NCBI GenBank assembly: GCA_015485595.1
Contig: WFTH01000081.1
Coordinates: forward strand, 1-15,338
DNA: 15,338 bases
Reading direction: 5' to 3'
DNA from: Candidatus Microgenomates bacterium
Lineage (GTDB): Bacteria > Patescibacteriota > Microgenomatia > UBA1400 > PJMF01
Shown: piece by piece, positions 4,471 to 15,338 of the stretch
Position numbering within the stretch: position 1 is the first letter of the stretch
Layout: every line of letters starts with the position of its first letter
The notes under the pieces: generated by a model
The model's database searches: none
The model's input: only the letters and a program-made list of their open reading frames with translations
What the model was told of the DNA's origin: nothing
Translations under genes and position numbers: made by a program

Positions 4471-5265
4471 ATGCTAGATGACTCCCAGCTATCTCAACTA
4501 AAGAACTTAAGTGAGACCGCTTCAAACCACCTAGTGCTTTATGATGTCAGCGCCAAAGACAGCATCTTGGCAGCAGCTAGTGGCTGGTATCTAGCTTTGA
4601 AAGAGAGGGGAGTGGATGTGAGCTTGGCAGCGCTAAAAAAGCCAACCAATAAGCGTCTTAATGGGTTAAAGGCAACCGAGACAGATCTGGGCAAGCAGAA
4701 CCTAACCATTAGTTTTGACTACCACGAAGAAGCGGTTGACAAGATTAGTTACCACATAGGCCAGGAGACAAAAAAGTTTTACCTAACTATCAAGCCTAAG
4801 AAAGGCCATAAGCCGCTTGAGGCTAAAACGGTAGAGTTTGCCTATACCGGGTTTGAGGCAGACATCATCTATGTTTTTGGGGTTAGCAAGCTAGAGGATC
4901 TGGATAAGCTTTATTTTGGATATGAGGAGCAGTTTAAACAGATACCGCTGGTGGCCTTTCATACTCAAGGGTTAGATTACGGCACAATCAAGATCTACAA
5001 CCAAGCTCCGGCTTTAAGTGAGGATGTTTTTCGCTTATTGACTCGCTTGGTTTGGCCGATCACACCAGATGTAGCCACCGACTTACTGTACGGTATTGAG
5101 GCAGAGACCAAGGGTTTAACTTCGCCACTGGCTACCGCCGAGACGTTTGATGCGGTAGCCAGACTCATGAAGTTGGGAGCAAAACGAGTTTGGTTAAAGA
5201 AAAAAAGACCAAGGCCAACTGCTAGTTTAAAAAGAGAAAAGAAAGAGGTGGTGGTTAAGGCTTAA
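4471..5265 (+). CDS. DHH-phosphoesterase-fold protein, probably inactive (NrnA-like pseudoenzyme)
   Basis: A 264-residue soluble protein whose layout follows the DHH/NrnA family, which in active members cleaves nanoRNA, pAp or cyclic dinucleotides. Residues 19-52 match the first Rossmann-like unit, but where NrnA has H-x-x-P-D-G-D there is Y-D-V-S-A-K-D-S. At 130-147 the strand that should carry a metal-binding Asp reads Y-V-F-G. Where the DHH triplet is expected (163-165) the sequence is F-H-T. Residues 201-237 correspond to the NrnA segment G-I-x-T-D-T-G, here G-I-E-A-E-T-K-G, followed by a well-kept helix ending in K-L-G-A. Nearly all metal ligands are therefore lost while the fold pattern remains, suggesting a binding or structural role. 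The C-terminus is a basic Lys/Arg tail. It is divergent from the VirB6-like gene and convergent with the 1275-residue gene, with 20 bases between the stops. Confidence 0.68.
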   Translation: MLDDSQLSQLKNLSETASNHLVLYDVSAKDSILAAASGWYLALKERGVDVSLAALKKPTNKRLNGLKATETDLGKQNLTISFDYHEEAVDKISYHIGQETKKFYLTIKPKKGHKPLEAKTVEFAYTGFEADIIYVFGVSKLEDLDKLYFGYEEQFKQIPLVAFHTQGLDYGTIKIYNQAPALSEDVFRLLTRLVWPITPDVATDLLYGIEAETKGLTSPLATAETFDAVARLMKLGAKRVWLKKKRPRPTASLKREKKEVVVKA

Positions 5266-5285: not shown

Positions 5286-8200
5286 TTAAATGGGGCAGTC
5301 GCTGGCTGAAAACTCCTTTAGAATGTTCGGGAAGATGGCTCGGCAGCAGATGTTGGAACTTAGGTTGTTTAGGTTAAGTCCGGGCCTGCCCGTAATATCT
5401 AGATATTTCTGTAGATTATCTGGGTTTTTGGTTAAAAACTGCTGGATGAGTGAGGGGTTTGAGCTGCAGCCGTAGTCGGATTTAACTTGATCTCCATAAA
5501 GACCACCACAGGCACTGTTTAAGGCTAGATCGTAAGAATTGTCCAGTTGGCACATAACTTGATCATTTCCAACTTGTGTTAGAACCTCTTCTCCTGGTTT
5601 GGCTCCACTTGATCCACCCGGCATGTTTGAGTTAAGAGTCAGCTTAGCACAGTACTGTTCTTTGGTGGGGCCGATGCTAAACTTAATTAAAGATGATTCG
5701 CCAACGGCAACCAAATTAGTACTTGTTTCTTTTTCGATGCCATCTTGACTAACAATCACGGTTTTGCTGGAGATACAAGCACTATCCACCGGAGCAAAAA
5801 TGGCATAGTGTCCGGCCTTGACCTTTAGATTAAGTACTACGTTCATGTAGCCTTTTGCGTCTGTTTGACCTGGGTCGGGGTGGTACTTAAGTTTAGCAGC
5901 GTTATTACGCCAGTAGTTAAAGTCCAAGAGTTCTAGATCAGTAACATCGTTGGGAATATACCAAATCTCAAAATGAGATTTATCGTTTCCGCCACAGCTA
6001 CGATTCCTACCACCATGACCAAGTGATTTCTGCCACTGACCTGGGTTCATCGGTGTTAGACTACCCGTAGTAATTAAAGTGGCTCCATCGATCACCATGC
6101 TGGCTAGTTTTAGTCTGTAAGGGGATTTTTCGTCTAAAAAGTAAAATTTGTCGTTTGAGGTTACCGGTTTTTGACAGTGATCACTACCCAAATCCTTACA
6201 GATCTTAAAGTTAATCGTTTCGTTTGTAACCGTGTCTTGTTGGACGCTGCAGTAAGCTCCCACAATGGTAGAGGGGTTGGTTTTCATGTATCTTGGGGCT
6301 ACGTCTTCGCCACTACAAGTACCCAAAAGGTACTCTTCGGTGGTTTTACACTGAGCTAAGTAGGCTCGTGGAGCATCTTTGAGTGTGTTTAGGTTAAGTT
6401 GGATCACTCTCATAAAGTAACCTATCCCTCCGCCAATAACGCGAATCGGGTCGGTTATGAGCTTGCTAATAGAGGCGGTGAAGCTTTTAGTGATGCTTTT
6501 AACTTCGTCTGCGCAGATTTGCCCCCCATCTGGGTTTGGAAGACATATTTTTTTGCCGGTTTTTTCTTGACCTGCTACAAAGGAGCGACCTTCACTACCT
6601 GGAGTAAAGTTAGTCAGAGTGCTTTGCATGGGGAAGCCAGATTTTTTATAAGGATCTCGGTAGTTTAGGGACTTAAGTTCTTCGGTGGTAAAAAAGGCTC
6701 CAGCTAGGGCCTCCTCGACCTCTTTAAGTTCATATCCGGCGGGGTAGACCAAGTAAAACTTAACCTCGGTTTCTCCTCCTTGTTTATAGGTATCTGGTTT
6801 GACCTCATACTCTGATTTAATCTCTACCTCGGCTGTCTCGTTTCCCTCTAGACTATCCGGTTTAAACAAAAACTTTAAAATCTCTTTACCAAAGGTTTCT
6901 TTAAACGCTGCTTGATTTGCATCGTTAAGCTTTAGGTTTGCGTTATCGCTAATGATAGAGCTACCTTCAAAGCTTGTGTTAGTGCAAAACATCTCTTTTC
7001 TTAGCTCATCATCTCGCCACTGACCGTTAATAATGTCGATTAAAGCTCGACCCAAAGGAGCTTGCTTGGGATCACAAGCTGTGCCGCCACCAGCGCAGTA
7101 GATAGCATCTTCTCCTGGAATCTGATTGTGAGCTAGTGTAGCCAGATCCCTTAGTCTTTGAGATAACTCCTGCCTTTTTTCGTCTTGTTCAAGTTGCTTG
7201 TTTATAGCAGTTAGGCTCTTTTGAGTGAGCTTTAGGGGGTCGATTCTTTCTTCAAAGTTGTCTCTTATCTGGTTTGGAGACACTTGGTTGTTTATGAGTT
7301 TTTTTAGATAGTCGGTGCGCTTGTTTACTTCATCCAAGACCTCGTTTGTGCCCAGATCTGGAATCTTAAAAGCAATGGCCAAGGTTTCCTCCCAACTAGC
7401 TTGCTCGTTCTTTGGTAAGAAGAAGTTAAACAGCCTGTTTGGTTCTTTTGGCACCTGCTTAACAGACATAACCAAAAAGGCCAGTCGGTAAGCTCGATCT
7501 AGATAGAGGGGGGTAAGGTAAAGTGCTTGAACCATCTTTTTTATCTTTTCGTCATTAGGATACTTGGCTAACCAGTCGTTACATGGTTCGTCTATCTTGT
7601 TGCCTAGCCTGGGGGTGTTTGTCATTACGGTGCCAAGCAGTGTTCGGTAGGTGAACTCCGTGTCTGGTATTTTTTGATCATAAAGGGCGCACACATCTGG
7701 ATTTTCTAGCTTCTCACAAAAGATCTTAGTCTGAACCAACAACCTGATGGCGGTCTTACATCTTTGAGGTCGAGTTAAAAGCGAGTTTATAGGTCCAGAG
7801 TTTAGCTCGGCTTGACTGACTGAGTCTGGATCTTTGGTATCCAGAAACCCAAAAAACTCCTCCATCGAGGCAAAAAGAAAACGTTTATCCGATGTGTCTC
7901 TAAAAATAGGGGTGCGAGCGCCAGTAAAGTCAAGCACAAACTTGGAGTTAAACGGCATAGTAATAGGACCGTTAAGCTCAAGAAACTTTTTAACAATGTC
8001 TTGAGGGCCAAGTGAGGGGTTAAGGTAGTACTTGGGAGTGGCGCAGTAGGCTTGGTAGCCTTGGCTAACTAGCTCGGAACGGATGGCGTTAACATCTTTT
8101 GTTTTAAGGCTTTTTATGGGGTAAAGGTAGAACTTGGTCTCGTCTATGTCGTAATCATCAAACCGGGACTTATCGTAACCGGAGTCTTTGTTAATTTTTT

Positions 8201-9113
8201 CCCAAGGACCTGTTTCGGTAATAATCACCCGATTATTTCCTAGTTGAGAAATAATTGGTGTTACATGTTCTTGCCAAGTTTTAACCATGGCTTGTCCGTT
8301 GGGATATATGTTTCCTGCTATAGCATAGAGTTTATCGAATCTAGCACCGCTTTCCTTCATTGCAAGAGCAATGCTTTCTCCTTGATCATTAAAGGTGTAG
8401 CTAGTGAAGTTAAAAGCTGGGGAAAGAAGTTTGACGTTGTCAGGTAAGCCACTGTTTAGCACCGTGTTCATATATTTGGCTAGCTTGGAACCGACGCAGT
8501 CGTACCACTCTTCTTTTCCAGGGGAAGGTGATCCACAGTGATGAGCCCAGTTTTCTATGTCAGGTTCATTTGGTCCTACAATGGCATAAAATGTTTTTCC
8601 TCCAATACCATCACTTATCCTCTTTAGAAAGGTTGCATAAACTTGTGGGTCTTCTAGTCCGAGAGCGCTACCTCCAACTCCTACCCTAATAATCACATTG
8701 TTAATACCTTCATTATTAATCACATCTATTATTGCTTGTTCGCTACCAGCTCTAGCGATTTCTAAACTCCAGTTCATTTGATGTTGACGAGCTTTATCGT
8801 AGCGTCCTCCTTTATAAATTGTTCCAAAGTTTGCACCGATATTTTTAGTACTACAACTACCTTCACAAAGGGTCTCGATCTGATTATCGCTCAAGCGATG
8901 TTTGGTAAAGTTTTGATCAGGGTTTGACCCAAAGGGTGTAAAAAGCAAAGCAGCTTGCACGCCAGGTTGATTTAGCAGTTCTAAAAGGTCATTTTTAAAA
9001 ACTTCAAATCTATCTTGATTTTGAGCCAGAACTACTTTTTTAACACCTAATAAACTTAAGGATCCAATAAATAGGGTCATTAGTACTAGCGGAACTAGCA
9101 AAGAATTTTTCAT
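5286..9113 (-). CDS. Very large exported protein with a glycoside hydrolase-like TIM barrel (clan GH-A type)
   Basis: A 1275-residue protein. Residues 1-30 are a signal peptide with likely cleavage after V-L-A (Q31). Residues about 90-330 show a barrel-like alternation with clan GH-A landmarks: I-G-A-N-F-G (92-97), I-I-R-V-G-V-G (141-147), G-P-N-E-P-D (180-185) with E183 as candidate acid/base, G-N-I-Y-P-N (267-272), and I-I-T-E-T-G (297-302) with E300 as candidate nucleophile. Beyond that, residues 400-700 are mostly helical with a possible coiled coil near 588-662. Residues 760-800 and 1085-1150 look beta-rich, and cysteines are scattered through the C-terminal half. There is no obvious C-terminal membrane anchor. 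The substrate is not predictable. The position between the VirB6-like gene and the pilin array suggests a surface-displayed or secreted accessory of that apparatus. The gene and its export are clear; the hydrolase assignment is a motif-based inference, and the barrel could be a binding domain. Confidence 0.7.
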   Translation of the reverse strand: MKNSLLVPLVLMTLFIGSLSLLGVKKVVLAQNQDRFEVFKNDLLELLNQPGVQAALLFTPFGSNPDQNFTKHRLSDNQIETLCEGSCSTKNIGANFGTIYKGGRYDKARQHQMNWSLEIARAGSEQAIIDVINNEGINNVIIRVGVGGSALGLEDPQVYATFLKRISDGIGGKTFYAIVGPNEPDIENWAHHCGSPSPGKEEWYDCVGSKLAKYMNTVLNSGLPDNVKLLSPAFNFTSYTFNDQGESIALAMKESGARFDKLYAIAGNIYPNGQAMVKTWQEHVTPIISQLGNNRVIITETGPWEKINKDSGYDKSRFDDYDIDETKFYLYPIKSLKTKDVNAIRSELVSQGYQAYCATPKYYLNPSLGPQDIVKKFLELNGPITMPFNSKFVLDFTGARTPIFRDTSDKRFLFASMEEFFGFLDTKDPDSVSQAELNSGPINSLLTRPQRCKTAIRLLVQTKIFCEKLENPDVCALYDQKIPDTEFTYRTLLGTVMTNTPRLGNKIDEPCNDWLAKYPNDEKIKKMVQALYLTPLYLDRAYRLAFLVMSVKQVPKEPNRLFNFFLPKNEQASWEETLAIAFKIPDLGTNEVLDEVNKRTDYLKKLINNQVSPNQIRDNFEERIDPLKLTQKSLTAINKQLEQDEKRQELSQRLRDLATLAHNQIPGEDAIYCAGGGTACDPKQAPLGRALIDIINGQWRDDELRKEMFCTNTSFEGSSIISDNANLKLNDANQAAFKETFGKEILKFLFKPDSLEGNETAEVEIKSEYEVKPDTYKQGGETEVKFYLVYPAGYELKEVEEALAGAFFTTEELKSLNYRDPYKKSGFPMQSTLTNFTPGSEGRSFVAGQEKTGKKICLPNPDGGQICADEVKSITKSFTASISKLITDPIRVIGGGIGYFMRVIQLNLNTLKDAPRAYLAQCKTTEEYLLGTCSGEDVAPRYMKTNPSTIVGAYCSVQQDTVTNETINFKICKDLGSDHCQKPVTSNDKFYFLDEKSPYRLKLASMVIDGATLITTGSLTPMNPGQWQKSLGHGGRNRSCGGNDKSHFEIWYIPNDVTDLELLDFNYWRNNAAKLKYHPDPGQTDAKGYMNVVLNLKVKAGHYAIFAPVDSACISSKTVIVSQDGIEKETSTNLVAVGESSLIKFSIGPTKEQYCAKLTLNSNMPGGSSGAKPGEEVLTQVGNDQVMCQLDNSYDLALNSACGGLYGDQVKSDYGCSSNPSLIQQFLTKNPDNLQKYLDITGRPGLNLNNLSSNICCRAIFPNILKEFSASDCPI

Positions 9114-9170: not shown

Positions 9171-9608
9171 CTACTTCCATTCAGTATTGGGGCCGGGGAT
9201 AACAAACTTACGGATGATGTTTACTCCGGTAAAGTCGGCAATTAGGTTAATGACTATAAAAGCACTCAAAGCTACCACTAAACCCACAACCGCAAACGTC
9301 ATGGTGTTTCTGGCTGTTTCTATGCCTTTACTACTACCACCAGAGGTCATCCAGCGTACCCCAGCCACCAAAAACATCACAAATCCAGCCAGTCCTAAAA
9401 GAGTGATAAAGACGGTAAAGATGTTTGCAATCAAGCACTCAAGACCTTGGATGGTTGCTACATCATTTGCGATACCGCTGGCCGGTCCTACACAAACACC
9501 AGACCACTCTTGCGTTTGGGCGAAAACTTTTAAAGGAAAAACGATGAGATAAAGAAAAGCTAAGCTCCAAAAAACTGTTAGTTTAAGTTTTAACTTCTTT
9601 TTGGGCAT
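9171..9608 (-). CDS. VirB2/TrbC-like pilin paralogue, divergent loop
   Basis: A 145-residue two-helix pilin-like protein. The signal peptide spans residues 1-30 and ends V-F-A before Q31. Membrane helices lie at about 58-83 and 102-125. The loop reads R-W-M-T-S-G-G-S-S-K (85-94), then A-R-N, so the usual G-D is replaced by G-S; this is the most divergent of the well-formed loops. Cys39 and Cys58 could pair. VirB2/TrbC pilins polymerise into a pilus after signal removal, with the loop between the helices lining the lumen; that role is inferred from topology. It is the last gene of its transcription unit, starting 17 bases after the stop of the 9626-10150 gene, and has no visible Shine-Dalgarno. 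Confidence 0.72.
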   Translation of the reverse strand: MPKKKLKLKLTVFWSLAFLYLIVFPLKVFAQTQEWSGVCVGPASGIANDVATIQGLECLIANIFTVFITLLGLAGFVMFLVAGVRWMTSGGSSKGIETARNTMTFAVVGLVVALSAFIVINLIADFTGVNIIRKFVIPGPNTEWK

Positions 9609-9625
9609 AAGCTAAATTGTTTGTT

Positions 9626-10150
9626 TTAGAGTTTGCTTGTTGAGGGACTGATCGGCACGATGTTATTAAACACTTCGGTGAGCGAGCCAAACCCTAAAAA
9701 TCTTAACATAATTTGTAGGACAGCATAGCTAGCGGCGATAATAATTACTCCAACTAAGGCCGAGATAATCTTGCTTCTAGCCTGGTCAGTCTTAGCTTTA
9801 TCACCACCAGAAGTAATCCACTCTATACCGCCCCAGATTAGATAGACAAAGACTAGTAAAGAGACCACAGCTATTAACAAGCTTAAAACACCTGTTAGCA
9901 AGGTGGTTAGGTTGTGGGCATAGCCTTGAGGTAATAAAGCAAGATCCGGGTTGCTTGTGTCTGCAGCAGAACTTGCGCCAATGGCGGTGCTAAGATAGGT
10001 GGTGCCGTCACTTTTAGTTACCAAACCGTCGTTTGAACCTGCGGCAAAAACTGAAGGATTAAAGTAAGCAGCTGAGAGAAGTAGGGCAAAAGTAATAAAG
10101 GGTGTAAAAATCAAAGGGCTTAGGCTAAGGTCAAGTTTTTTCTTTCTCAT
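9626..10150 (-). CDS. VirB2/TrbC-like pilin paralogue
   Basis: A 174-residue member of the pilin array. It has a basic N-terminus (M-R-K-K-K), a signal peptide ending V-F-A at residue 36, a 45-residue Ser/Asp/Leu-rich exported segment, and membrane helices at about 82-106 and 128-150. The loop W-G-G-I-E-W-I-T-S-G-G-D-K-A-K-T plus A-R-S-K (106-127) is the canonical form. The end of helix 2 and the tail (S-Y-A-V-L-Q, then L-G-F-G-S-L) match the genes at 10235 and 10726, so these three are a subfamily. It starts a new two-gene unit with its own TATAAT after a terminator, and the 9171 gene follows. It lacks a Shine-Dalgarno. Confidence 0.8.
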   Translation of the reverse strand: MRKKKLDLSLSPLIFTPFITFALLLSAAYFNPSVFAAGSNDGLVTKSDGTTYLSTAIGASSAADTSNPDLALLPQGYAHNLTTLLTGVLSLLIAVVSLLVFVYLIWGGIEWITSGGDKAKTDQARSKIISALVGVIIIAASYAVLQIMLRFLGFGSLTEVFNNIVPISPSTSKL

Positions 10151-10159
10151 AATAAATTT

Positions 10160-10168
10160 ATTATACCA
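10160..10168 (-). promoter_or_regulatory. Extended -10 promoter of the 9626-10150 gene
   Basis: TGGTATAAT reads on the minus strand at 10168-10160, nine bases before the ATG at 10150. A weak TTGTTT -35-like hexamer at 10188-10183, at 17 bases, overlaps the foot of the terminator stem. A very short leader is implied. Confidence 0.5.
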
Positions 10169-10176
10169 AAATGCCC

Positions 10177-10217
10177 AGAAAAAAACAAAACCCCCGACTG
10201 ACCGGAGGTTTTGTTTT
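10177..10217 (-). terminator. Intrinsic terminator after the 10235-10639 pilin gene
   Basis: Bases 10182-10196 and 10203-10217 are inverted repeats forming a 15-base-pair stem with a 6-base loop. On the minus-strand RNA the only imperfection is one U:G pair, whereas on the plus strand it would be a C:A mismatch. On the minus strand the stem runs into a T-tract. It lies 18 bases past the stop of the pilin gene and separates the two transcription units. Confidence 0.8.
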
Positions 10218-10234
10218 AATTTTTTAGTGCCTAG

Positions 10235-10639
10235 TTACAAGCTAATATTTTGAGTGTCTTGGATCGGGTTAACATTAGTGAAAGTCTCGCTAATGCTGCC
10301 AAAACCAAGCACGTTCAGACCAATCTGAAGGATGGCATAGCTGGCTGCCAAGACGATCAAACCAATCACAGCTGCGGTAATTTTGTTTCTGGCTTCCTCG
10401 GTTTTACCTTTATCTCCACCAGAAGTAATCCACTGAATGCCGCCCCAGATTAGGTACATAAAGACCAGCAAGGCAGCAATGGCCATGATGAAAGAAAGCA
10501 CAGTCGAGATAATACTTCCGATGTTAGCGGCAAAACCTTTACTACCTTTAATGTCTCCTACCTCTATCGCAAAAGCCATGGGGGAAGTAAGTAGAAACGC
10601 AGTCGCGCTAACACTCAAAGCGGCAAGTTTTTTTGACAT
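10235..10639 (-). CDS. VirB2/TrbC-like pilin, candidate major pilin with its own transcription unit
   Basis: A 134-residue pilin-like protein, compact and with little beyond the core. The signal peptide is residues 1-24 (ends A-F-A), giving a mature chain of about 110 residues. Membrane helices lie at about 42-66 and 88-110. The loop W-G-G-I-Q-W-I-T-S-G-G-D-K-G-K plus A-R-N-K is canonical. The tail L-G-F-G-S-I, then N-V-N-P-I, resembles the 9626 and 10726 genes. It is the only pilin gene here with all signals of strong independent expression: a TTGACT/TATAAT promoter at 18-base spacing, a strong AGGAGA ribosome binding site 6 bases from the ATG, and an intrinsic terminator behind it. That makes it the best candidate for the abundant pilus subunit; this is inference from signals, not from protein data. 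Confidence 0.82.
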   Translation of the reverse strand: MSKKLAALSVSATAFLLTSPMAFAIEVGDIKGSKGFAANIGSIISTVLSFIMAIAALLVFMYLIWGGIQWITSGGDKGKTEEARNKITAAVIGLIVLAASYAILQIGLNVLGFGSISETFTNVNPIQDTQNISL

Positions 10640-10644
10640 AGTTA

Positions 10645-10650
10645 TCTCCT
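10645..10650 (-). promoter_or_regulatory. Strong Shine-Dalgarno of the 10235-10639 pilin gene
   Basis: The minus strand reads AGGAGA at 10650-10645, with 6 bases between GGAG and the ATG at 10639. It is the strongest ribosome binding site in the window; the other pilin genes lack one. Confidence 0.75.
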
Positions 10651-10677
10651 TTTTTTTAACTCTAACTATTACTAGGC

Positions 10678-10707
10678 ATTATACGCATGTTGTACTTATC
10701 AAGTCAA
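10678..10707 (-). promoter_or_regulatory. Full promoter of the 10235-10639 pilin gene
   Basis: TTGACT (10707-10702) and TATAAT (10683-10678) are separated by 18 bases, the best match to a housekeeping promoter in the window. The start near 10671 gives a leader of about 31 bases containing the Shine-Dalgarno. Confidence 0.75.
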
Positions 10708-10725
10708 GATTTAATCTACCAGGTA

Positions 10726-11127
10726 TTAACTGCTACCTATTGGTTTGATTAGTTTAATGCTGTTGTTCAGACTACCCAAGCCAAGCAGTTTAAGTGCTAG
10801 CTGCAAGATAGCATAGCTTGCAGCTAAGGCCAGTAAGCCGATTACAGCCTGCATCATCTTGTTTCTAGCTTTCTCCACTTTGCCACTGTCACCTCCAGCG
10901 CTAATCCACTCTATTGCTCCCCAAACCAGGTAGGCAAACACCAAAAGAACACTAATTCCCATTACTACCGAGATTAAACTAGTAACCAGACTGCCAAGAT
11001 CAGGGGCGTATCCAGGAGGATTTTCTATTACTCCAGGCGATATGGCTTGGGCAAAGACAGGCTGAACCTGGCTTAAAACCAAGCTTCCTAGACTAAAAAT
11101 AGTTGTAAGTCGAGTAAGTTTTTTCAT
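10726..11127 (-). CDS. VirB2/TrbC-like pilin paralogue
   Basis: A 133-residue pilin-like protein. Signal peptide 1-26 ends V-F-A before Q27. Membrane helices lie at about 45-69 and 92-115. The loop W-G-A-I-E-W-I-S-A-G-G-D-S-G-K-V plus A-R-N-K is close to canonical. It bridges two subfamilies: the second helix and tail (A-S-Y-A-I-L-Q, L-G-L-G-S-L, ending K-P-I-G-S-S) resemble the 10235 and 9626 genes, while the D-S-G-K loop and the N-K-M-M after it resemble the 11139-12465 group. It starts 11 bases after the stop of the 11139 gene and is the last gene of the upstream operon. No Shine-Dalgarno or terminator is visible. Confidence 0.8.
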   Translation of the reverse strand: MKKLTRLTTIFSLGSLVLSQVQPVFAQAISPGVIENPPGYAPDLGSLVTSLISVVMGISVLLVFAYLVWGAIEWISAGGDSGKVEKARNKMMQAVIGLLALAASYAILQLALKLLGLGSLNNSIKLIKPIGSS

Positions 11128-11138
11128 ATTGGTTTGTT

Positions 11139-11603
11139 TTATTTACAAGCGCCACCGATGCCTATAAGACAAACTCCCAAGAACTGTTGTAGGGCAGCAA
11201 AGATAGCTGTTACCGAAGCCAAGATGATCAAGCCAATAACCGCATGCATCATCTTGTTTCTAGCTTTTTGAAGCTTGCCAGAGTCTCCTTCAGAAGTGAT
11301 CCACTCAACCGCACCCCAGATTAAGTAGGCTAAGACTAACAAGGCGGCAATCGGCATAACTACACCCATCAGCCGACCGACCCAGTCCCAAAAGTTAGCC
11401 TCGTAGTTACCAGTACCAGCGTGGGGAATAACTCCCTTGCCAGCTTGACCGATGTTAAAACTACCCTCGGTGTAGTTTGCCTCACCATTAGGTGGTCCAC
11501 CCCCTCCAGTACGTGGACTTGGAATCGGCTTGTCTGGCCCAAGTGTTATGGCCCAAGCTTTACCTACAAGAGTTTTGTTTATAGTTGCCAAGACTTTTAA
11601 CAT
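11139..11603 (-). CDS. VirB2/TrbC-like pilin paralogue with Gly/Pro-rich exported segment
   Basis: A 154-residue pilin-like protein. The N-terminus is only weakly signal-like (a possible A-W-A site at 16-18). Residues 25-60 are rich in Gly and Pro, including four Gly in a row, and would be exposed. Helices lie at about 75-97 and 119-139. The loop W-G-A-V-E-W-I-T-S-E-G-D-S-G-K-L plus A-R-N-K is canonical except S-E-G-D in place of S-G-G-D. After helix 2 a Gly-rich tail carries two cysteines (C145 and C153). Loop DNA is identical over 35 bases to the next two genes. It starts 12 bases after the 11616 gene's stop; no Shine-Dalgarno is seen. Confidence 0.78.
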   Translation of the reverse strand: MLKVLATINKTLVGKAWAITLGPDKPIPSPRTGGGGPPNGEANYTEGSFNIGQAGKGVIPHAGTGNYEANFWDWVGRLMGVVMPIAALLVLAYLIWGAVEWITSEGDSGKLQKARNKMMHAVIGLIILASVTAIFAALQQFLGVCLIGIGGACK

Positions 11604-11615
11604 AGTTAAAGGTTT

Positions 11616-12038
11616 TTAGTTTGTTTGCTTGTTTGCAAAGATAAAGTTTAGGTTGAGTATATCAAAGTTATCGCCAAAGAGCAGGCGAGAGACAAAGCCG
11701 ATGATTATGAAAGCAGAGACTAAGATTAAAAGACCGATGGCTGCATGCATCATCTTATTTCTAGCTTTTTGAAGCTTGCCAGAGTCTCCTTCGGACATAA
11801 GCCACTCAAACGCACCCCAAAGAAAGTACATAATCGTAAGCAGTCCACCGACTGCAACCGCATTGCCCCAATAACGCACGAACTGCTCTAGAAGCAGCTG
11901 CCCGCTTTTGGCTTTATTTGGGTTATTACCCAGAGAATTAATAGCCGGATTAGTAACAGATTCAAGCGCAAAGGTTTGAGTAACTTTAATGTCAAGGCTC
12001 AGACCGAAAATAATAAGCGATTGAATAATTTTTTTCAT
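11616..12038 (-). CDS. VirB2/TrbC-like pilin paralogue
   Basis: A 140-residue pilin-like protein. The signal peptide is probably residues 1-24 (T-F-A site). Helices lie at about 56-78 and 98-119. The loop is W-G-A-F-E-W-L-M-S-E-G-D-S-G-K-L plus A-R-N-K-M-M-H-A. The tail after helix 2 is short and Asn/Phe-rich. Its loop-coding DNA is identical over 47 bases (11758-11804) to the gene at 12061, and over 35 of those bases to the gene at 11139, pointing to recent duplication or gene conversion. It starts 22 bases after the 12061 gene's stop with no Shine-Dalgarno; a TATAAA-like box lies in that gap but is weak evidence for a promoter. Confidence 0.78.
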   Translation of the reverse strand: MKKIIQSLIIFGLSLDIKVTQTFALESVTNPAINSLGNNPNKAKSGQLLLEQFVRYWGNAVAVGGLLTIMYFLWGAFEWLMSEGDSGKLQKARNKMMHAAIGLLILVSAFIIIGFVSRLLFGDNFDILNLNFIFANKQTN

Positions 12039-12060
12039 GATTTATAGCTTCAAATTCAAA

Positions 12061-12465
12061 CTAGTTGGTAGGCGCAACTTCTTTTAGGATTTTAGCTGGG
12101 TTCAGAATATCAAGCCCGACCAAGCTGCCGATCAGTCCAATAATAGCGTAAGCTCCAACCACTAAGGCTAGGCCGATAACCGCGTGGATCATCTGGTTTC
12201 TAGCTTTTTGAAGCTTGCCAGAGTCTCCTTCGGACATAAGCCAAGCGTAAGCAGCCAAAAGAAAATAGATGATAAAAAATATACCCGCAGCTACCGTCCC
12301 AATAGCGATCACATTTGAGATCATGGTGGTCATAGCATTTAGCGCTGTTTCTCCAGTAGCGTCTGTAACTGCTTCCTGAGGGGCGTAGATGTTTTTTTCT
12401 GCAGGAGGTTGAATGCCGGAACCAAACTGGGCTATCTGGACGACTAGGAGTAGTGTTCCTAACAT
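12061..12465 (-). CDS. VirB2/TrbC-like pilin paralogue, unusual N-terminus
   Basis: A 134-residue pilin-like protein. The N-terminus (M-L-G-T-L-L-L-V-V-Q) is hydrophobic but very short and lacks the basic residues of a normal signal peptide, so export may differ or the start may be misplaced. Helices lie at about 50-73 and 94-114. The loop lacks the W-G of its relatives (L-A-A-Y-A-W-L-M-S-E-G-D-S-G-K-L) but keeps A-R-N and the whole acidic/basic pattern. It is the sister of the 11616 gene. An extended -10-like TGGTAAAAT lies 11 bases upstream, so a local promoter is possible. Confidence 0.75.
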   Translation of the reverse strand: MLGTLLLVVQIAQFGSGIQPPAEKNIYAPQEAVTDATGETALNAMTTMISNVIAIGTVAAGIFFIIYFLLAAYAWLMSEGDSGKLQKARNQMIHAVIGLALVVGAYAIIGLIGSLVGLDILNPAKILKEVAPTN

Positions 12466-12476
12466 AGACTTGTTTT

Positions 12477-12485
12477 ATTTTACCA
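12477..12485 (-). promoter_or_regulatory. Possible extended -10 element before the 12061-12465 gene
   Basis: The minus strand reads TGGTAAAAT at 12485-12477, eleven bases before the ATG at 12465, in the 33-base gap after the previous gene. No -35 box is seen, so this is tentative. Confidence 0.35.
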
Positions 12486-12498
12486 CATTTTTATTAAG

Positions 12499-13164
12499 TT
12501 AGGGTGTGGGTGGAGCAAGCGCTCCGTATTTAGTAAGATCGGGATTAAGCACGATTCCCGGATCACCGAAAAAGATGTAACCAAAGAGTGCAGCGCCGGT
12601 ATAAGCAGCTACAATGATAATTATACCAATAATGCTAAAGGTTAGCTTGTCTTTAATTTCTGCATACAGACCGGTGTTACCGGCAGAGGTGATATAGACA
12701 TAACCTGCAGAGATAAAGTTGACAAAGATTAAAAGTCCCGCCACGATGTTTACCAGTTTTAAAAGTTTAGAGGCGAAAACTAAGATGCCGATGTTGATGC
12801 CGCTTGAACCACCTGCACGGGCATTATATTCAAAAACGCCCTTTGGTGGTTCAACCTTGCCGATAAGAGCTGACCCACACGTTCTATTGCTAAGTCGAAT
12901 CACCTTTTTTTTCACTCCTCCAACATCTACTTCCGCACTTTCACATATTTTATTATTAACGCACTGGCCATCACGTGTGCAGCCACCGTAACAGCTATAT
13001 CCTGGAGGACATGCTGTCGCTTGGACTTGAATTTTGCTTGTTTGTAAAAATTGATTAGCAAAACCAACTCCCAAAAATAAACTGATAATCACCAAGCTTA
13101 TTGACAGTGTTGTCTTAATTACATTAACCATATTGATTGCTAGTTTTGGGTTGTGATTTTTCAC
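12499..13164 (-). CDS. Pilin-like protein with a six-cysteine exported domain
   Basis: A 221-residue protein with the two-helix pilin core at its C-terminal half (helices about 125-155 and 173-198). The loop is Y-V-Y-I-T-S-A-G-N-T-G, a diverged form lacking G-D and A-R-x-K. The tail F-G-D-P-G-I-V-L-N-P matches the 13258 gene, so these two are a pair. N-terminal to the core, residues 45-120 form an exported segment with six cysteines (52, 58, 62, 68, 74, 96) in a tight spacing typical of a small disulfide-linked module. The start is ambiguous: GTG at 13164 (used here) or ATG at 13131; either leaves the hydrophobic export segment near residues 14-36. No Shine-Dalgarno decides between them. The cysteine module could be an adhesive or specificity head on a minor pilin; this is inference. 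Confidence 0.75.
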   Translation of the reverse strand: MKNHNPKLAINMVNVIKTTLSISLVIISLFLGVGFANQFLQTSKIQVQATACPPGYSCYGGCTRDGQCVNNKICESAEVDVGGVKKKVIRLSNRTCGSALIGKVEPPKGVFEYNARAGGSSGINIGILVFASKLLKLVNIVAGLLIFVNFISAGYVYITSAGNTGLYAEIKDKLTFSIIGIIIIVAAYTGAALFGYIFFGDPGIVLNPDLTKYGALAPPTP

Positions 13165-13192
13165 TTTTTAGTTTAGCATTTATAATTTATAA
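13165..13192. repeat. AT-rich heptamer tract before the 12499-13164 gene
   Basis: This gap begins with a short AT-rich stretch containing TTTATAA twice in direct tandem (13179-13185 and 13186-13192). It resembles the longer seven-base-period tracts at 13632 and 14192. Confidence 0.45.
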
Positions 13193-13204
13193 AATTTTGT
13201 TTTT

Positions 13205-13240
13205 GGATTCTCCACCCACTACGCTTAAGGAGAATGACAT
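13205..13240. repeat. Inverted repeat resembling a dispersed palindromic element
   Basis: ATTCTCC (13207-13213) and GGAGAAT (13229-13235) can form a 7-base-pair stem with a 15-base loop, ending in AATGACAT. Read on the minus strand it has the G-T-C-A-T-T-C to G-A-A-T-C-C outline of palindromic repeats scattered in many bacterial genomes. It follows the 13258 gene but has no T-tract, so it is not a clear terminator. Confidence 0.4.
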
Positions 13241-13257
13241 TAGTGTGCAACATAGTG

Positions 13258-13626
13258 TTATGGTCCAGAAATTTCTGGTTTAAGTACAAATCCAGGGTCT
13301 CCCCAAAGCAAATAGCTTAAAACAGCGGTAATTACATATGCACCGATAATTAGAGCTAGACCGATGACACTCATGGTAATTTTTGCCTTAACTAACTCAT
13401 GAGACTTGGTATCTCCTTTACCGGTAATGTAGATATAGCCTGCTAGGATAAAGTTAAACAAGACCCAGATGCCTAGAAACGCCAGGGCTACCTTCATAAG
13501 GTTAGAAACAAACCAGAAGATGGCGATTTCATTCTTAGTGGGATTAAGTCCAGAAGCTTGAATTTGTTTATCCACTCCCGGTGGGGGAGAGATGGCGCCG
13601 ATTGATTTAGTTAGATCTGTTGGCAT
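13258..13626 (-). CDS. Minimal pilin-like protein without a signal peptide
   Basis: A 122-residue pilin-like protein. Unlike most relatives it has no signal peptide: residues 1-40 are polar and Pro-rich (M-P-T-D-L-T-K start). Helices lie at about 44-66 and 83-107. The loop Y-I-Y-I-T-G-K-G-D-T-K keeps G-D, but a V-K-A-K replaces A-R-N-K. The tail W-G-D-P-G-F-V-L-K-P pairs it with the 12499 gene. The first helix could itself act as the export signal, with the N-terminus either in or out. It sits between two intergenic repeat tracts, so it may be transcribed separately, but no firm promoter or Shine-Dalgarno is visible. Confidence 0.75.
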   Translation of the reverse strand: MPTDLTKSIGAISPPPGVDKQIQASGLNPTKNEIAIFWFVSNLMKVALAFLGIWVLFNFILAGYIYITGKGDTKSHELVKAKITMSVIGLALIIGAYVITAVLSYLLWGDPGFVLKPEISGP

Positions 13627-13631
13627 ATGTT

Positions 13632-13769
13632 TGATTTAAAATTTAAGATTTAAAATTACGAGACGTTAGTCATTAGTTATTTGAGCATTAGTGATTCGTT
13701 ATTTCAATTTAGCAATGTTTGCACATTGATATTTGTTTGTATTTTGGTCATTGATCGATTGATCATTAC
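13632..13769. repeat. Intergenic tract with seven-base periodicity
   Basis: The gap between two pilin genes reads as successive degenerate heptamers. It opens with TGATTTA, AAATTTA, AGATTTA and AAATTAC (13632-13659), and GATTTAAAATT recurs exactly 14 bases apart (13633 and 13647). TAGTCAT/TAGTTAT and similar words follow. It contains one copy of an element shared with 14246-14290. Confidence 0.6.
13694..13738. repeat. Copy 1 of a shared intergenic element
   Basis: Bases 13694-13712 are identical to 14246-14264 over 19 bases (ATTCGTTATTTCAATTTAG). The similarity continues for about 25 more bases with a few substitutions and small gaps (TGTTT, then CAC, TTGATA, TTG). Confidence 0.65.
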
Positions 13770-14183
13770 TTAAAGTATTATATCTGCTCCTGTAATCAGT
13801 TTAATGATTTGGACGATCCAGTAAGCACCGAACATGATTAAAAAGCCCACAAGCCCCCACAGGGCAATCTGATTAGCATCCTGCAAAGCCTTTTTTCCTC
13901 CAGTTATGTACTTATAACCGACGATGATGGCAAGAACCAATACCATCATGCCACCCAAGATCATTAGGTTGCGAACTATAAGGTTAACTAAGAAGGCTGG
14001 TTGGCTGTAGACGTCTTTTATGGGGGTGTCGTTAGACAGTTTTAGACAGGTGCCGAGGTCTACACCAGAGCCAGGATCGCAAACACCAGTGGTTGGTGTA
14101 ACAGCAAAAGCGGAAGTGCTTGTGATTAATATGATCAAAGTGGATAAAGCAAGTGGTAAAATACGTTTAAGTTTGGCTGACAT
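13770..14183 (-). CDS. Pilin-like protein, two-cysteine type
   Basis: A 137-residue pilin-like protein. The signal peptide is residues 1-27 (A-F-A before V28). The short exported segment holds Cys35 and Cys46, likely a disulfide. Helices lie at about 72-92 and 107-130. The loop Y-K-Y-I-T-G-G-K-K-A-L-Q-D-A is a reduced form without G-D. Helix 2 and the tail (G-A-Y-W-I-V-Q-I-I, then I-T-G-A-D) match the 14329 gene, making a pair. It is flanked on both sides by the heptamer-periodic tracts, so transcription may be independent of its neighbours; there is no Shine-Dalgarno. Confidence 0.75.
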   Translation of the reverse strand: MSAKLKRILPLALSTLIILITSTSAFAVTPTTGVCDPGSGVDLGTCLKLSNDTPIKDVYSQPAFLVNLIVRNLMILGGMMVLVLAIIVGYKYITGGKKALQDANQIALWGLVGFLIMFGAYWIVQIIKLITGADIIL

Positions 14184-14191
14184 TGTGTTTA

Positions 14192-14328
14192 AGATACTAG
14201 ATACCAGATACTGGATATTTGTTTTTAGTCATTTAAGTATTCGTTATTCGTTATTTCAATTTAGTATTGTTTACACTTGATACTTGGTTATTGTTTGTTA
14301 TTTGTGTTATTGGTGCTTAATACTTAAC
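14192..14328. repeat. Intergenic tract with seven-base periodicity
   Basis: From 14192 the gap divides into heptamers in one unbroken phase, opening with AGATACT, AGATACC, AGATACT and GGATATT. TCGTTAT appears twice in tandem (14241-14254). Across 21 consecutive heptamers (ending inside the next gene's tail at 14338) the seventh base is T in 17. The region is T-rich, which lowers the weight of that count, but the exact tandem copies are clear. Confidence 0.65.
14246..14290. repeat. Copy 2 of a shared intergenic element
   Basis: The first 19 bases are identical to 13694-13712, followed by a diverged stretch. It lies inside the second heptamer tract, and both copies are upstream of a pilin start on the minus strand. 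Confidence 0.65.
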
Positions 14329-14949
14329 TTACAGTATTTTAACACCAAAGACTACTTGAATAATCTGCCAGATCCAGTAGGTGGCAAACAGGATAAAAAA
14401 GCCGACTATAGCGGCAGTCACTCTTTGTTTGCCGGCATCGACTTTTTTGCTAATTGAACCCATCATGATCTCAAATCCACCCCAAACGAGCATGACGAAC
14501 AGCACTAGACCTGCCAGAGGAAAAAGAAACTTAATTACCCGAGAGACAATGCCTCCCGGGGTAGATAAATCACTCACATACTCTGACTCTTTTTTTTCTG
14601 CAATATTATCTGCTCCGCCAATATATAAGGGGTTTAGAGCATTAAAGGTTTCATTGTCCGGACCCTCTATAGGGTTGTTAATTCTATCCAGTGGCTGACT
14701 TTGACAACTACCATCATAGTACCAGCCACAGCAGTATTCATCATCAGTAATGAATTGACCGCTTGTTTTTTGATCATCATACTCACAACTGCAACTAACA
14801 TCATCATATGCTTGGATATTTGTTTCTTGACCACAATGCATATTGAGCACATTTTGTGCTTTTACATGAGGGACACTGATAAAAATAAGAACTAATAAAA
14901 GAAAGTTGAAAGATAGTGTCATGATAAGTATATGAGTAATTTTTCTCAT
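14329..14949 (-). CDS. Pilin-like protein with an acidic, cysteine-rich exported domain
   Basis: A 206-residue protein. The signal peptide is residues 1-31 (V-K-A before Q32). Residues 32-135 are a long exported domain, acidic and aromatic, with six cysteines (39, 53, 55, 73, 74, 82) including a C-S-C and an adjacent C-C pair. The pilin core follows: helices at about 139-157 and 177-201, with a loop of the form W-G-G-F-E-I-M-M-G-S-I-S-K-K, then A-G-K-Q-R, lacking G-D. The end (A-T-Y-W-I-W-Q-I-I) matches the 13770 gene. The spacing of cysteines differs from the 12499 gene, so the two cysteine modules probably arose separately. It could be a minor or tip pilin carrying a binding head; this is inference. 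It starts 32 bases after the stop of the 14982 gene without a Shine-Dalgarno. Confidence 0.77.
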   Translation of the reverse strand: MRKITHILIMTLSFNFLLLVLIFISVPHVKAQNVLNMHCGQETNIQAYDDVSCSCEYDDQKTSGQFITDDEYCCGWYYDGSCQSQPLDRINNPIEGPDNETFNALNPLYIGGADNIAEKKESEYVSDLSTPGGIVSRVIKFLFPLAGLVLFVMLVWGGFEIMMGSISKKVDAGKQRVTAAIVGFFILFATYWIWQIIQVVFGVKIL

Positions 14950-14976
14950 TTTTAACTTTTAATTGTTAATTTTAAT
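14949..14976. repeat. Short heptamer tract before the 14329-14949 gene
   Basis: The gap reads TTTTTAA, CTTTTAA, TTGTTAA, TTTTAAT in succession from 14949, again with a seven-base step. It is very AT-rich, so periodicity here is only suggestive. Confidence 0.35.
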
Positions 14977-14981
14977 TAATG

Positions 14982-15315
14982 CTACCCTCCAAACCCAGGT
15001 ATTTTAAGTATATTCCACCCCACAAACTGAAGCAACGTAACAGAAAAGATAATAAACAAAAGTCCAGATAAAGAAGCAACGATCATCTCTTTTGCCTGAC
15101 CGACGCGTTTAGGATCCCCCTCTGACACACTAAACATAAACCCGCCAGCTAAAAGTGAAAGCAGTGCTACCCCTCCCGCCGCTCCTAAACCTAGACGAAT
15201 CAATGCTTGAATTAGTTTGGTTGGATCACTTTTAATACAGCCCACAGCGGTCCAGATACCGTCAGATCCATTTGGTCCCAAACAGTTAATGCAGGCTTGT
15301 TGAGCACTCGTATTA
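14982..15315 (-). CDS. Pilin-like protein, N-terminus lost at the contig end
   Basis: A partial gene; genuine sequence ends at about 15315. An apparent full-length reading that starts at 15332 with M-C-I-R-D-S is an artefact, because those codons come from the Nextera transposon end. About 110 genuine residues remain. They begin with a Cys-containing segment (A-C-I-N-C-L-G-P, then G-I-W-T-A-V-G-C), then two membrane helices with a loop of the form V-S-E-G-D-P-K-R-V, then A-K, which keeps E-G-D but has K where A-R is usual. The tail is W-N-I-L-K-I-P-G-F-G-G. The real start and any signal peptide lie beyond the window. It belongs to the VirB2/TrbC-like pilin group and may open the array, or further members may follow off the contig. 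Confidence 0.75.
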
Positions 15316-15338
15316 CTGTCTCTTATACACATCTGACG
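15316..15338. other. Nextera transposase adapter left at the contig end
   Basis: Bases 15316-15334 are exactly CTGTCTCTTATACACATCT, the Nextera mosaic end, and the next four bases (GACG) continue the standard adapter. This is library-preparation sequence, not genomic DNA. Confidence 0.97.

Follow-up and report, generated by a model that had tools for sequence, protein, structure and literature searches.

The window, the whole stretch of 15,338 nucleotides analysed here, carries an array of at least twelve pilin-like genes that is part of a chromosomal T4SS locus. The array is read, with a probability of about 0.6, as a T4SS pilin module of fixed, ordered subunits, with P3 as the major pilin and the others as dedicated minor subunits, not switchable spares. 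What is noteworthy is the conserved order together with the separate major-pilin unit, not array size. The host is a small, probably uncultured bacterium, presumably a Patescibacterium of the class Microgenomatia.

Twelve adjacent minus-strand ORFs were found (P1 to P12, 9171-15332 in the ORF list of the window; Table 1), bearing out the initial annotation, which had counted at least twelve consecutive paralogues. The two-helix pilin core and charged loop ascribed to them there were found in all twelve when the cores were compared. Because the contig ends in a sequencing adapter, which we take to be Nextera, the last ORF opens (15332) with a start codon that does not belong to the genome. P12 itself is what the contig end leaves of a longer gene, its C-terminal piece, and the count of at least twelve stands with the twelfth partial. 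The C-terminus of a 410-aa protein from the relative G012 matches P12 at 62% identity. Its full-length relatives in the family and the named loci (scored up to L061, with L062-L066 left out) have 214-515 aa, though shorter P12-type ORFs (117-172 aa) also occur elsewhere in the class. P11 is 142-543 aa long in family relatives, and its N-terminal domain, like that of P12, is variable. The N-terminal part of a modelled P12 orthologue (L052, 415 aa, 9 sequences) is beta-rich, which is taken only as a hint because model confidence is low (mean pLDDT 43.6). Twelve such genes also occur in two relatives, but in broken arrays: G014 has a 4-kb gap, and in G035 they lie on two contigs.

Table 1. Positions in the window of the pilin-like genes, their neighbours and associated signals.
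Feature	Position	Strand	Basis
VirB6-like polytopic membrane protein, 611 aa	2504..4339	-	Named by position and hydrophobicity; without family match
Exported protein, 1275 aa, adjoins array	5286..9113	-	Match in 27 of 42 family genomes, window genome included
P1, pilin-like, 145 aa, last gene of array	9171..9608	-	PF18895 29.4 bits; orthologues one clade, 100% bootstrap
P2, pilin-like, 174 aa, P3-like, only in some relatives	9626..10150	-	PF18895 30.9 bits; clusters with P3
Terminator-like hairpin and T run 3' of P3	10179..10212	-	-20.6 kcal/mol
P3, pilin-like, 134 aa, candidate major pilin	10235..10639	-	PF18895 38.4 bits, best of array
Shine-Dalgarno (SD) AAGGAG of P3	10646..10651	-	Found 5' of P3
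Promoter-like site of P3, TTGACT-18-TATAAT	10678..10707	-	Best of window, 11/12
P4, pilin-like, 133 aa, lineage-specific extra copy beside P3	10726..11127	-	PF18895 30.5 bits; without stable orthologue group
P5, pilin-like, 154 aa	11139..11603	-	PF18895 36.1 bits
P6, pilin-like, 140 aa	11616..12038	-	PF18895 33.3 bits; one clade, 100% bootstrap
P7, pilin-like, 134 aa	12061..12465	-	PF18895 26.0 bits, slightly below cut-off 26.6
35-bp identical loop segment	12197..12231 (P7), 11257-11291 (P5), 11758-11792 (P6)	-	Sequence comparison
P8, pilin-like, 221 aa, Cys-rich N-terminal domain	12499..13164	-	PF18895 23.8 bits; sequence
P9, pilin-like, 122 aa	13258..13626	-	PF18895 18.5 bits; 39% identity to P8 over 112 aa
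P10, pilin-like, 137 aa	13770..14183	-	PF18895 none; PF04956 14.9 bits (below cut-off); one clade, 100%
P11, pilin-like, 206 aa, Cys-rich N-terminal domain	14329..14949	-	PF18895 25.5 bits
P12, C-terminal piece; relatives with long N-terminal domain	14982..15315	-	PF18895 20.5 bits
Adapter, non-genomic, contig end	15316..15338	.	Exact 19-mer, 1 match vs 0 expected

Profile searches matched 11 of the 12 proteins to PF18895 (T4SS_pilin), six (P1-P6) over the cut-off of 26.6 bits and P7, P8, P9, P11, and P12 below it; in a six-frame search of the genome, 9 of 11 matches were over the cut-off. All 11 PF18895 matches of the whole genome (E up to 1) lie inside the array. At E up to 1 the profile also finds matches in 11 of 14 control genomes, so cross-genome counts use E 0.01 or 0.001, at which 1 of 14 is matched. 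None of the proteins reached the cut-off of PF04956 (TrbC/VirB2, 27.9 bits), for which P10 (14.9 bits) and P4 (12.8 bits) were the sole proteins to appear. Within the set of twelve, BLASTP with P10 returned P11 (E 6e-10) and P1 (E 2e-6). Similarity to the Mbov_0395 conjugal pilin-like family (NF045849) is weak, with P3 at E 7e-8 and 7 of the 12 better than 1e-3, none of them reaching the curated cut-off of 40 bits. The VirB2-type features are present, namely a signal-like N-terminus (seen by eye in P1-P4, P6, P8, P10, and P11, and not clear in P5, P7, and P9), two long helices, and a short charged loop. In the P3 model the helices span 40-72 and 77-110 (block pLDDT 85-95, overall 74.6). A two-helix hairpin is also the build of the VirB2, TrbC, and TraA conjugative pilins (T-pilus 8exh) and of the archaeal conjugation pilins (8dfu). 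The first Foldseek match of P3 is 8dfu, at a non-significant E of 2.1; with a second aligner the T-pilus 8exh also appeared, and unrelated helical hairpins scored as high as the pilin match. Neither P3 nor its alignment brought up a useful match when searched against PDB sequences. In the interpretation of the initial annotation, which is upheld in part, the label of VirB2-like pilins is supported by PF18895, by the sub-cut-off Mbov_0395 likeness, and by the T4SS setting; the cut-off of the TrbC/VirB2 profile PF04956 itself is missed.

That setting is of the VirB2 type, with a VirB6-like protein in the window (match in 32 of 42 family genomes, window genome included) and with VirB4 and a PrgI-like protein on a second contig of the same genome, C98. 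The PrgI-like protein was recognised by eye in comparison with G012, and DnaA, also on C98, by eye. C98 is the other half of the T4SS locus, with counterparts in G012. The locus adjoins dnaA, for which reason a horizontal or phage origin of the array was set aside. In G012 the 1275-aa protein corresponds to two ORFs, of which the second has a lysozyme-like SLT_3 domain. In the 92%-complete genome, the relaxase family PF03432, the only one searched, had no match, and the coupling protein PF02534 had none at E 0.01, which divergent homologues could escape; no VirB5-like gene was recognised by reading the sequence.

Mean core identity was 42% for neighbours and 30% for all pairs, and 0 of 20,000 random orders reached the neighbour value, in agreement with the initial annotation that neighbours are most alike. 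Its subfamilies mostly hold (P2/P3/P4 at 48-63%, P5/P6/P7 at 42-55%, P8/P9 at 37%, and P10/P11 at 30%), with P1 and P12 standing apart from them, but the boundary between P4 and P5 does not: P4 resembles P5 (61%) as much as it does P3 (63%), and P2-P7 are therefore one gradient, with identity down to 21% for P2 versus P7. Besides the 35-bp loop segment identical in P5, P6, and P7, a loop tract of 47 bp is common to P6 and P7. Similarity of the P5-P7 loops was 0.68 within versus 0.54 between genomes (p 0.0005) in a test of 7 genomes and 8 subunit sets, with a clear signal only in sets of P5, P6, and P7; their second helix has a small within-genome excess too (0.34 versus 0.30, p 0.005). The P5-P7 loops evolve in concert inside genomes, with helices that are position-specific.

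The order of the types was compared in relatives using a core profile and type profiles built from arrays that include the window's own genes, with the P2 and P4 labels in relatives assigned by position. Among 42 family genomes, a P1-P10-type array was examined in 25 (window genome included); G001 (two pilin-like genes) and G029 (one) were left untyped, and G030 has zero pilin-like genes. The type order was the same as in the window in all 23 family arrays compared, with best hits in array order in 7 of 7 arrays of at least 3 genes and in 16 of 16 further ones, one of which has only two genes. Beyond the family, 20 arrays from other families of the class were hand-picked among high-scoring places, most with several neighbouring matches, and gave a net concordance of 305 of 411 gene pairs, compared with a maximum of 115 in 20,000 shuffles; all 20 were counted, including those without order or too short (G286, G282, G051, G064, and G230). 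Outside the class the types could not be told apart: 20 arrays gave a net concordance of 67 in 272 pairs, and best and second-best profile scores were nearly equal. In bootstrap trees, P1, P6, P10, and P12 each formed one clade in 100%, and on the tree the twelve labels required 17 changes, compared with a minimum of 11 and a mean of 70 for shuffled labels. P5 was one group in just 52% of the bootstrap trees, P7, P8, P9, and P11 need two changes each, and P2, P3, and P4 group by genome; P2 and P4 alone are lineage-specific copies.

The signals around P3 recur in the family. A terminator-like hairpin, which for P3 of the window is absent from the list of a simple terminator scan, follows 21 of 24 P3 genes in family arrays versus 0 of 158 other pilin genes; an SD of at least 5 bases precedes P3 in 22 of 24 arrays versus 10 of 158 other genes, and a promoter-like site of at least 10/12 in 17 of 24 versus 14 of 158. 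These counts cover 24 family arrays, leaving out G036 (two genes, without P3) and the separate P12/P11 pairs of G018, G019, G003, G021-G023, and G040. Within the class but outside the family, these P3 signals weaken (terminator 5/16, promoter 7/16, and SD 4/16). By the signals in the family P3 is a transcription unit of its own and is likely the major pilin. Six pilin types are under purifying selection in the genome pair G024/G025, with dN/dS of about 0.01 (P3) to 0.10 (P7), values that come from this one pair since dS was saturated or large in other pairs.

Conserved order, orthology, the P3 unit, and purifying selection therefore lead to the pilins being read as dedicated parts, not spares. 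One major pilin with about nine dedicated minor subunits is the best reading, and these would co-assemble in one filament; a mixed composition or many minor subunits, as had been proposed for the pilus at the outset, fits the data best, with the assembly itself presumptive. In the mechanism that we infer for expression level, assembly, tip role, and assembly sequence, P3 would be the major pilin by its own strong promoter and terminator, P1 and P5-P12 would be dedicated subunits of low abundance, each with its own place given by its own transmembrane helices, and P2 and P4 would be local copies of P3. Subunits would reach the membrane through Sec, their charged loop facing inward, and the VirB4 ATPase and a VirB6/PrgI platform would extract them, those with ectodomains first and the P3 shaft after. 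As tip or host-contact subunits, the absent VirB5 may be replaced by P12 and P11, the first two genes of the array and the bearers of the variable N-terminal domains. It is possible, though doubtful, that the pilus is a programmed heteropolymer of a major VirB2-like pilin and some nine obligate, non-interchangeable minor pilins whose gene order mirrors position throughout the class, with P12/P11 at the tip replacing VirB5, P10-P5 as graded adaptors, P3 as shaft, and P1 as base.

The minor "pilins" could instead be pilin-fold membrane proteins that make up the envelope platform or translocation channel of a monoderm T4SS, and a pilus would then be formed by P3 alone or not at all. Gram-positive T4SSs are generally without a pilus (PMC12102498; PMC10633639), the pilin profile is a distant fit for several types (P9 at 18.5 bits, P10 with none), and any fixed complex fits conserved order and purifying selection. 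However, the pilin core and loop are common to all twelve, and the loop concert of P5-P7 is expected of subunits with one partner, though a filament is not required for it; this alternative is considered unlikely. A switchable or host-range repertoire, with alternative major pilins by strain or phase by analogy with Bartonella and Anaplasma, is proposed for Patescibacteria arrays in the part of PMC12102498 that treats them; switchable subunits were also among the suggestions of the initial annotation. The labile P3 copies P2 and P4 agree with it, as do the short tracts common to P5, P6, and P7, which point to sequence exchange. It is contradicted by order and orthology conserved across genera and families, by low dN/dS (0.01-0.10) in the single pair judged, by the array's repeats, with no inverted repeats of at least 20 bases found and just three short tandem repeats, and by full expression signals that are regular only at P3. 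Such a repertoire is improbable, and antigenic switching, the published suggestion, was rejected on order, orthology, and selection. Neighbours would also be most alike after serial tandem duplication if neutral or dosage copies had merely been retained by chance, but the types are old, each is conserved in its own right although the genomes measure only some 0.7-1.3 Mb, and they are under purifying selection in the pair judged; this explanation is the least credible. If the pilins are instead fixed parts, as preferred here, the question shifts from which pilin is on to the role of each part.

Patescibacteria VirB2-like arrays were described in 2025 (PMC12102498): 441 arrays of 2-11 genes, with a mean identity of 25% and a maximum of 54%, for which a role in host versatility was suggested by analogy with antigenic variation. 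As that paper's array section presents them, they share with the window PF18895, the T4SS setting, divergent tandem pilins, and abundance in Microgenomatia; the window array differs in having at least 12 genes, and the same section is without mention of conserved order, orthologous types, a major-pilin unit, or loop concert. Size and order had both been singled out for attention in the window; the order (and the separate P3 unit) merits it, whereas the size, given the published arrays of 2-11 genes, does not. In S. epibionticum, the one species tested, the T4SS pilin series is essential, and the pilins lie in a T4SS cluster without recognisable relaxase or coupling protein, according to a 2023 report (PMC10633639); a review gives it six pilins (PMC12857230). 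It is a Saccharibacterium, and its genome was not among the 20 arrays outside the class. The tandem trwL (VirB2) copies of Bartonella Trw vary in number by species and are regarded as variant surface forms, the surface-detected adhesin being TrwJ (VirB5), as outlined in PMC3406051. Tandem T4SS pilin gene copies are the likeness to the window array, which differs from Trw as outlined there in its conserved order and types and in that reading the sequence brought up no VirB5-like gene. Patescibacteria in cultivation live on other microbes (PMC12206443), and described conjugative pili consist of VirB2 with VirB5 at the tip (PMC12624023). A small literature search, which is no proof of absence, found no heteropolymeric conjugative pili with minor pilins. 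If true, a VirB2-type structure with dedicated minor pilins would be a new architecture for the superfamily, one that would follow a logic akin to that of type IV pili with their minor pilins.

P1 to P12, adjacent minus-strand genes, all encode a common two-helix core flanking a charged loop. The window comprises one complete contig, C81. In a Pfam profile search, six of the twelve proteins scored above the curated cut-off of T4SS_pilin (PF18895) and five matched below it; P10 gave no match to this profile and was placed in the pilin set because of its similarity to P11 and P1 and the position of its orthologues. The genes had been called VirB2/TrbC-like in the initial annotation; the cut-off of the TrbC/VirB2 profile was not reached by any of P1 to P12. 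All 11 PF18895 matches of the genome (688-kb assembly, 92% complete) lie inside the array. Similarity between neighbours exceeded that in all 20,000 random gene orders, a pattern for which chance is ruled out, and across P2 to P7 identity declines in a gradient as distance along the array grows.

Coordinates of the array and other features on the contig
Feature	Position	Strand	Observation
Array P1 to P12	9171-15315	minus	pilin-like genes
P3	10235-10639	minus	candidate major pilin
P2 start codon	10150	minus	TATAAT box 9-10 bases ahead
1275-aa exported protein	5286-9113		beside the array; matches in 27/42 family genomes, window's included
Start codon of 1275-aa gene	9113		TATAAT box 9-10 bases ahead
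Gene among minus-strand T4SS genes	398-2476	plus	no family match over cut-off
Gene among minus-strand T4SS genes	4471-5265	plus	no family match over cut-off
Transposase (sequencing) adapter	15316-15338		contig right end

Gene order was compared in arrays of the family and of other families of the class, presumably Microgenomatia. Seven family arrays with at least three genes each had their best window hits in array order, with ties, and the types P10, P8/P9, P7, P6, P5, P3, (P2), P1 occurred in that order in 16/16 further family arrays, judged as far as each contig extends (one has two genes only). In a tree of 93 cores, whose 90 columns leave many forks weak, P1, P6, P10, and P12 were each a single clade in 100% of bootstrap trees and P5 in 52%. 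P7, P8, P9, and P11 took two changes each, P2, P3, and P4 grouped by genome, and the twelve labels jointly took 17 changes (minimum 11, shuffled mean 70). Net order concordance in 20 class arrays from other families was 305/411 gene pairs (20,000 shuffles reached at most 115); among those with more than three genes, P12 was first in 12/17, the P3 type second-last in 14/17, and P1 last in 15/17. Types were not resolved in 20 arrays from outside the class (67/272; p 0.0007), where the concordance stayed within the range of the shuffles, the largest of which gave 79. PF18895 was present in 265/276 class-sample and 233/240 phylum-sample genomes. At 11198-12013 of locus L074 in G038, neighbouring P6- and P5-type pilins (labels of the present analysis) form one ORF with two pilin cores, a natural fusion. 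The P3-like copy after P3 in G010 and G011 (L205, L206) has 261-265 aa, roughly double the normal size.

The best promoter-like site in the window belongs to P3, which also has an AAGGAG Shine-Dalgarno (SD) and a strong hairpin with a T run. Across 24 family arrays, window's included, P3 genes differed from other pilin genes in terminators (21/24 versus 0/158), SD (22/24 versus 10/158), and promoters (17/24 versus 14/158). The signals were weaker in other families, yet still leaned to the last P3-type gene (terminator 5/16 versus 1/108, promoter 7/16 versus 9/108, SD 4/16 versus 3/108). In one close pair (G024/G025), dN/dS of six types was lowest in P3 (0.01), followed by P5 (0.02) and the others (0.06-0.10), with P1, P2, P4, P11, and P12 outside the comparison. 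Besides the TATAAT boxes of P2 and the 1275-aa gene, P10 in four relatives has one 7-11 bases ahead of its start; these boxes suggest leaderless messages, unlike P3 with its SD.

An exact 35-bp loop segment is common to P5, P6, and P7 (47 bp to P6/P7), despite which their helices diverge widely. In seven genomes, P5-P7 loops resembled one another more closely inside a genome (0.68) than across genomes (0.54; permutation p 0.0005), and this within-genome similarity also exceeded that of orthologues (0.56), whereas helices were more alike between orthologues (0.48, 0.57) than between within-genome paralogues (0.34, 0.34). The second helix had a small within-genome excess (0.34 versus 0.30, p 0.005) and the first had none in the seven genomes (p 0.11). 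The loop pattern looks like short-tract gene conversion or a common constraint on the loop. The loop of VirB2-type pilins is the cytoplasmic, later lumenal part, and the pattern fits subunits handled by one partner.

Because the contig ends in an adapter, P12 is a fragment and its initial residues are an artefact; a gene caller would assign it a false start there (MCIRDS). Its relatives at eight named loci have 214-515 aa; their N-terminal part varies, a Cys-containing segment is conserved, and the pilin core is C-terminal. Some P12-type ORFs in other parts of the class have only 117-172 aa. A search of the rest of the assembly with the protein of the relative G012 as query did not recover the N-terminal part that P12 lacks.

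The array is adjoined by a VirB6-like gene with family matches in 32/42 genomes, window's included. A second contig (C98) carries the remainder of the locus, namely a large protein, a 321-aa protein, a PrgI-like protein, VirB4, and DnaA, with names other than VirB4 assigned by reading against G012. There, the entire locus lies on a single contig in the order recF-like gene, P12 to P1, large exported proteins (one with a lysozyme-like domain), VirB6-like gene, M23 peptidase protein, PrgI, VirB4, dnaA, and dnaN (recF, dnaA, dnaN, and VirB6 named from reading translations). Profile searches of the 92%-complete genome found neither a relaxase (PF03432) nor a coupling protein (PF02534). The two plus-strand genes have G012 counterparts, by eye, in the same places and the same relative orientation. 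The 1275-aa protein has only a sub-threshold cellulase-like stretch; two ORFs correspond to it in G012, and the second of these has a lysozyme-like SLT_3 domain at its end.

We consider a T4SS surface structure the likeliest mechanism; P3 would be its bulk subunit and the remaining pilins specialised minor subunits. We infer that all pilins enter one filament; the chief alternative holds that most of them belong to a channel or platform. P12 and P11 would be located at host contact, given their variable ectodomains, their array-opening position, and that no VirB5-like gene was recognised by reading. In several relatives (G018, G019, G003, G021, G022, G023), P12 and P11 lie beside the VirB6-like gene and P10-P1 elsewhere, which suggests two modules.

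The pilin array per se is not new, since tandem arrays of 2-11 genes with a mean identity of 25% are described in Patescibacteria, abundantly in Microgenomatia (PMC12102498), and the T4SS pilins of S. epibionticum are reported as essential (PMC10633639). No account of the conserved order, orthologous types, separate major-pilin unit, or loop concert was found in the array section of PMC12102498 or in titles and abstract openings of related literature. In analogy to Bartonella and Anaplasma, array variety has been proposed to aid adaptation to host strains (PMC12102498); the present results agree better with dedicated parts that form a fixed set than with a wardrobe of variants.
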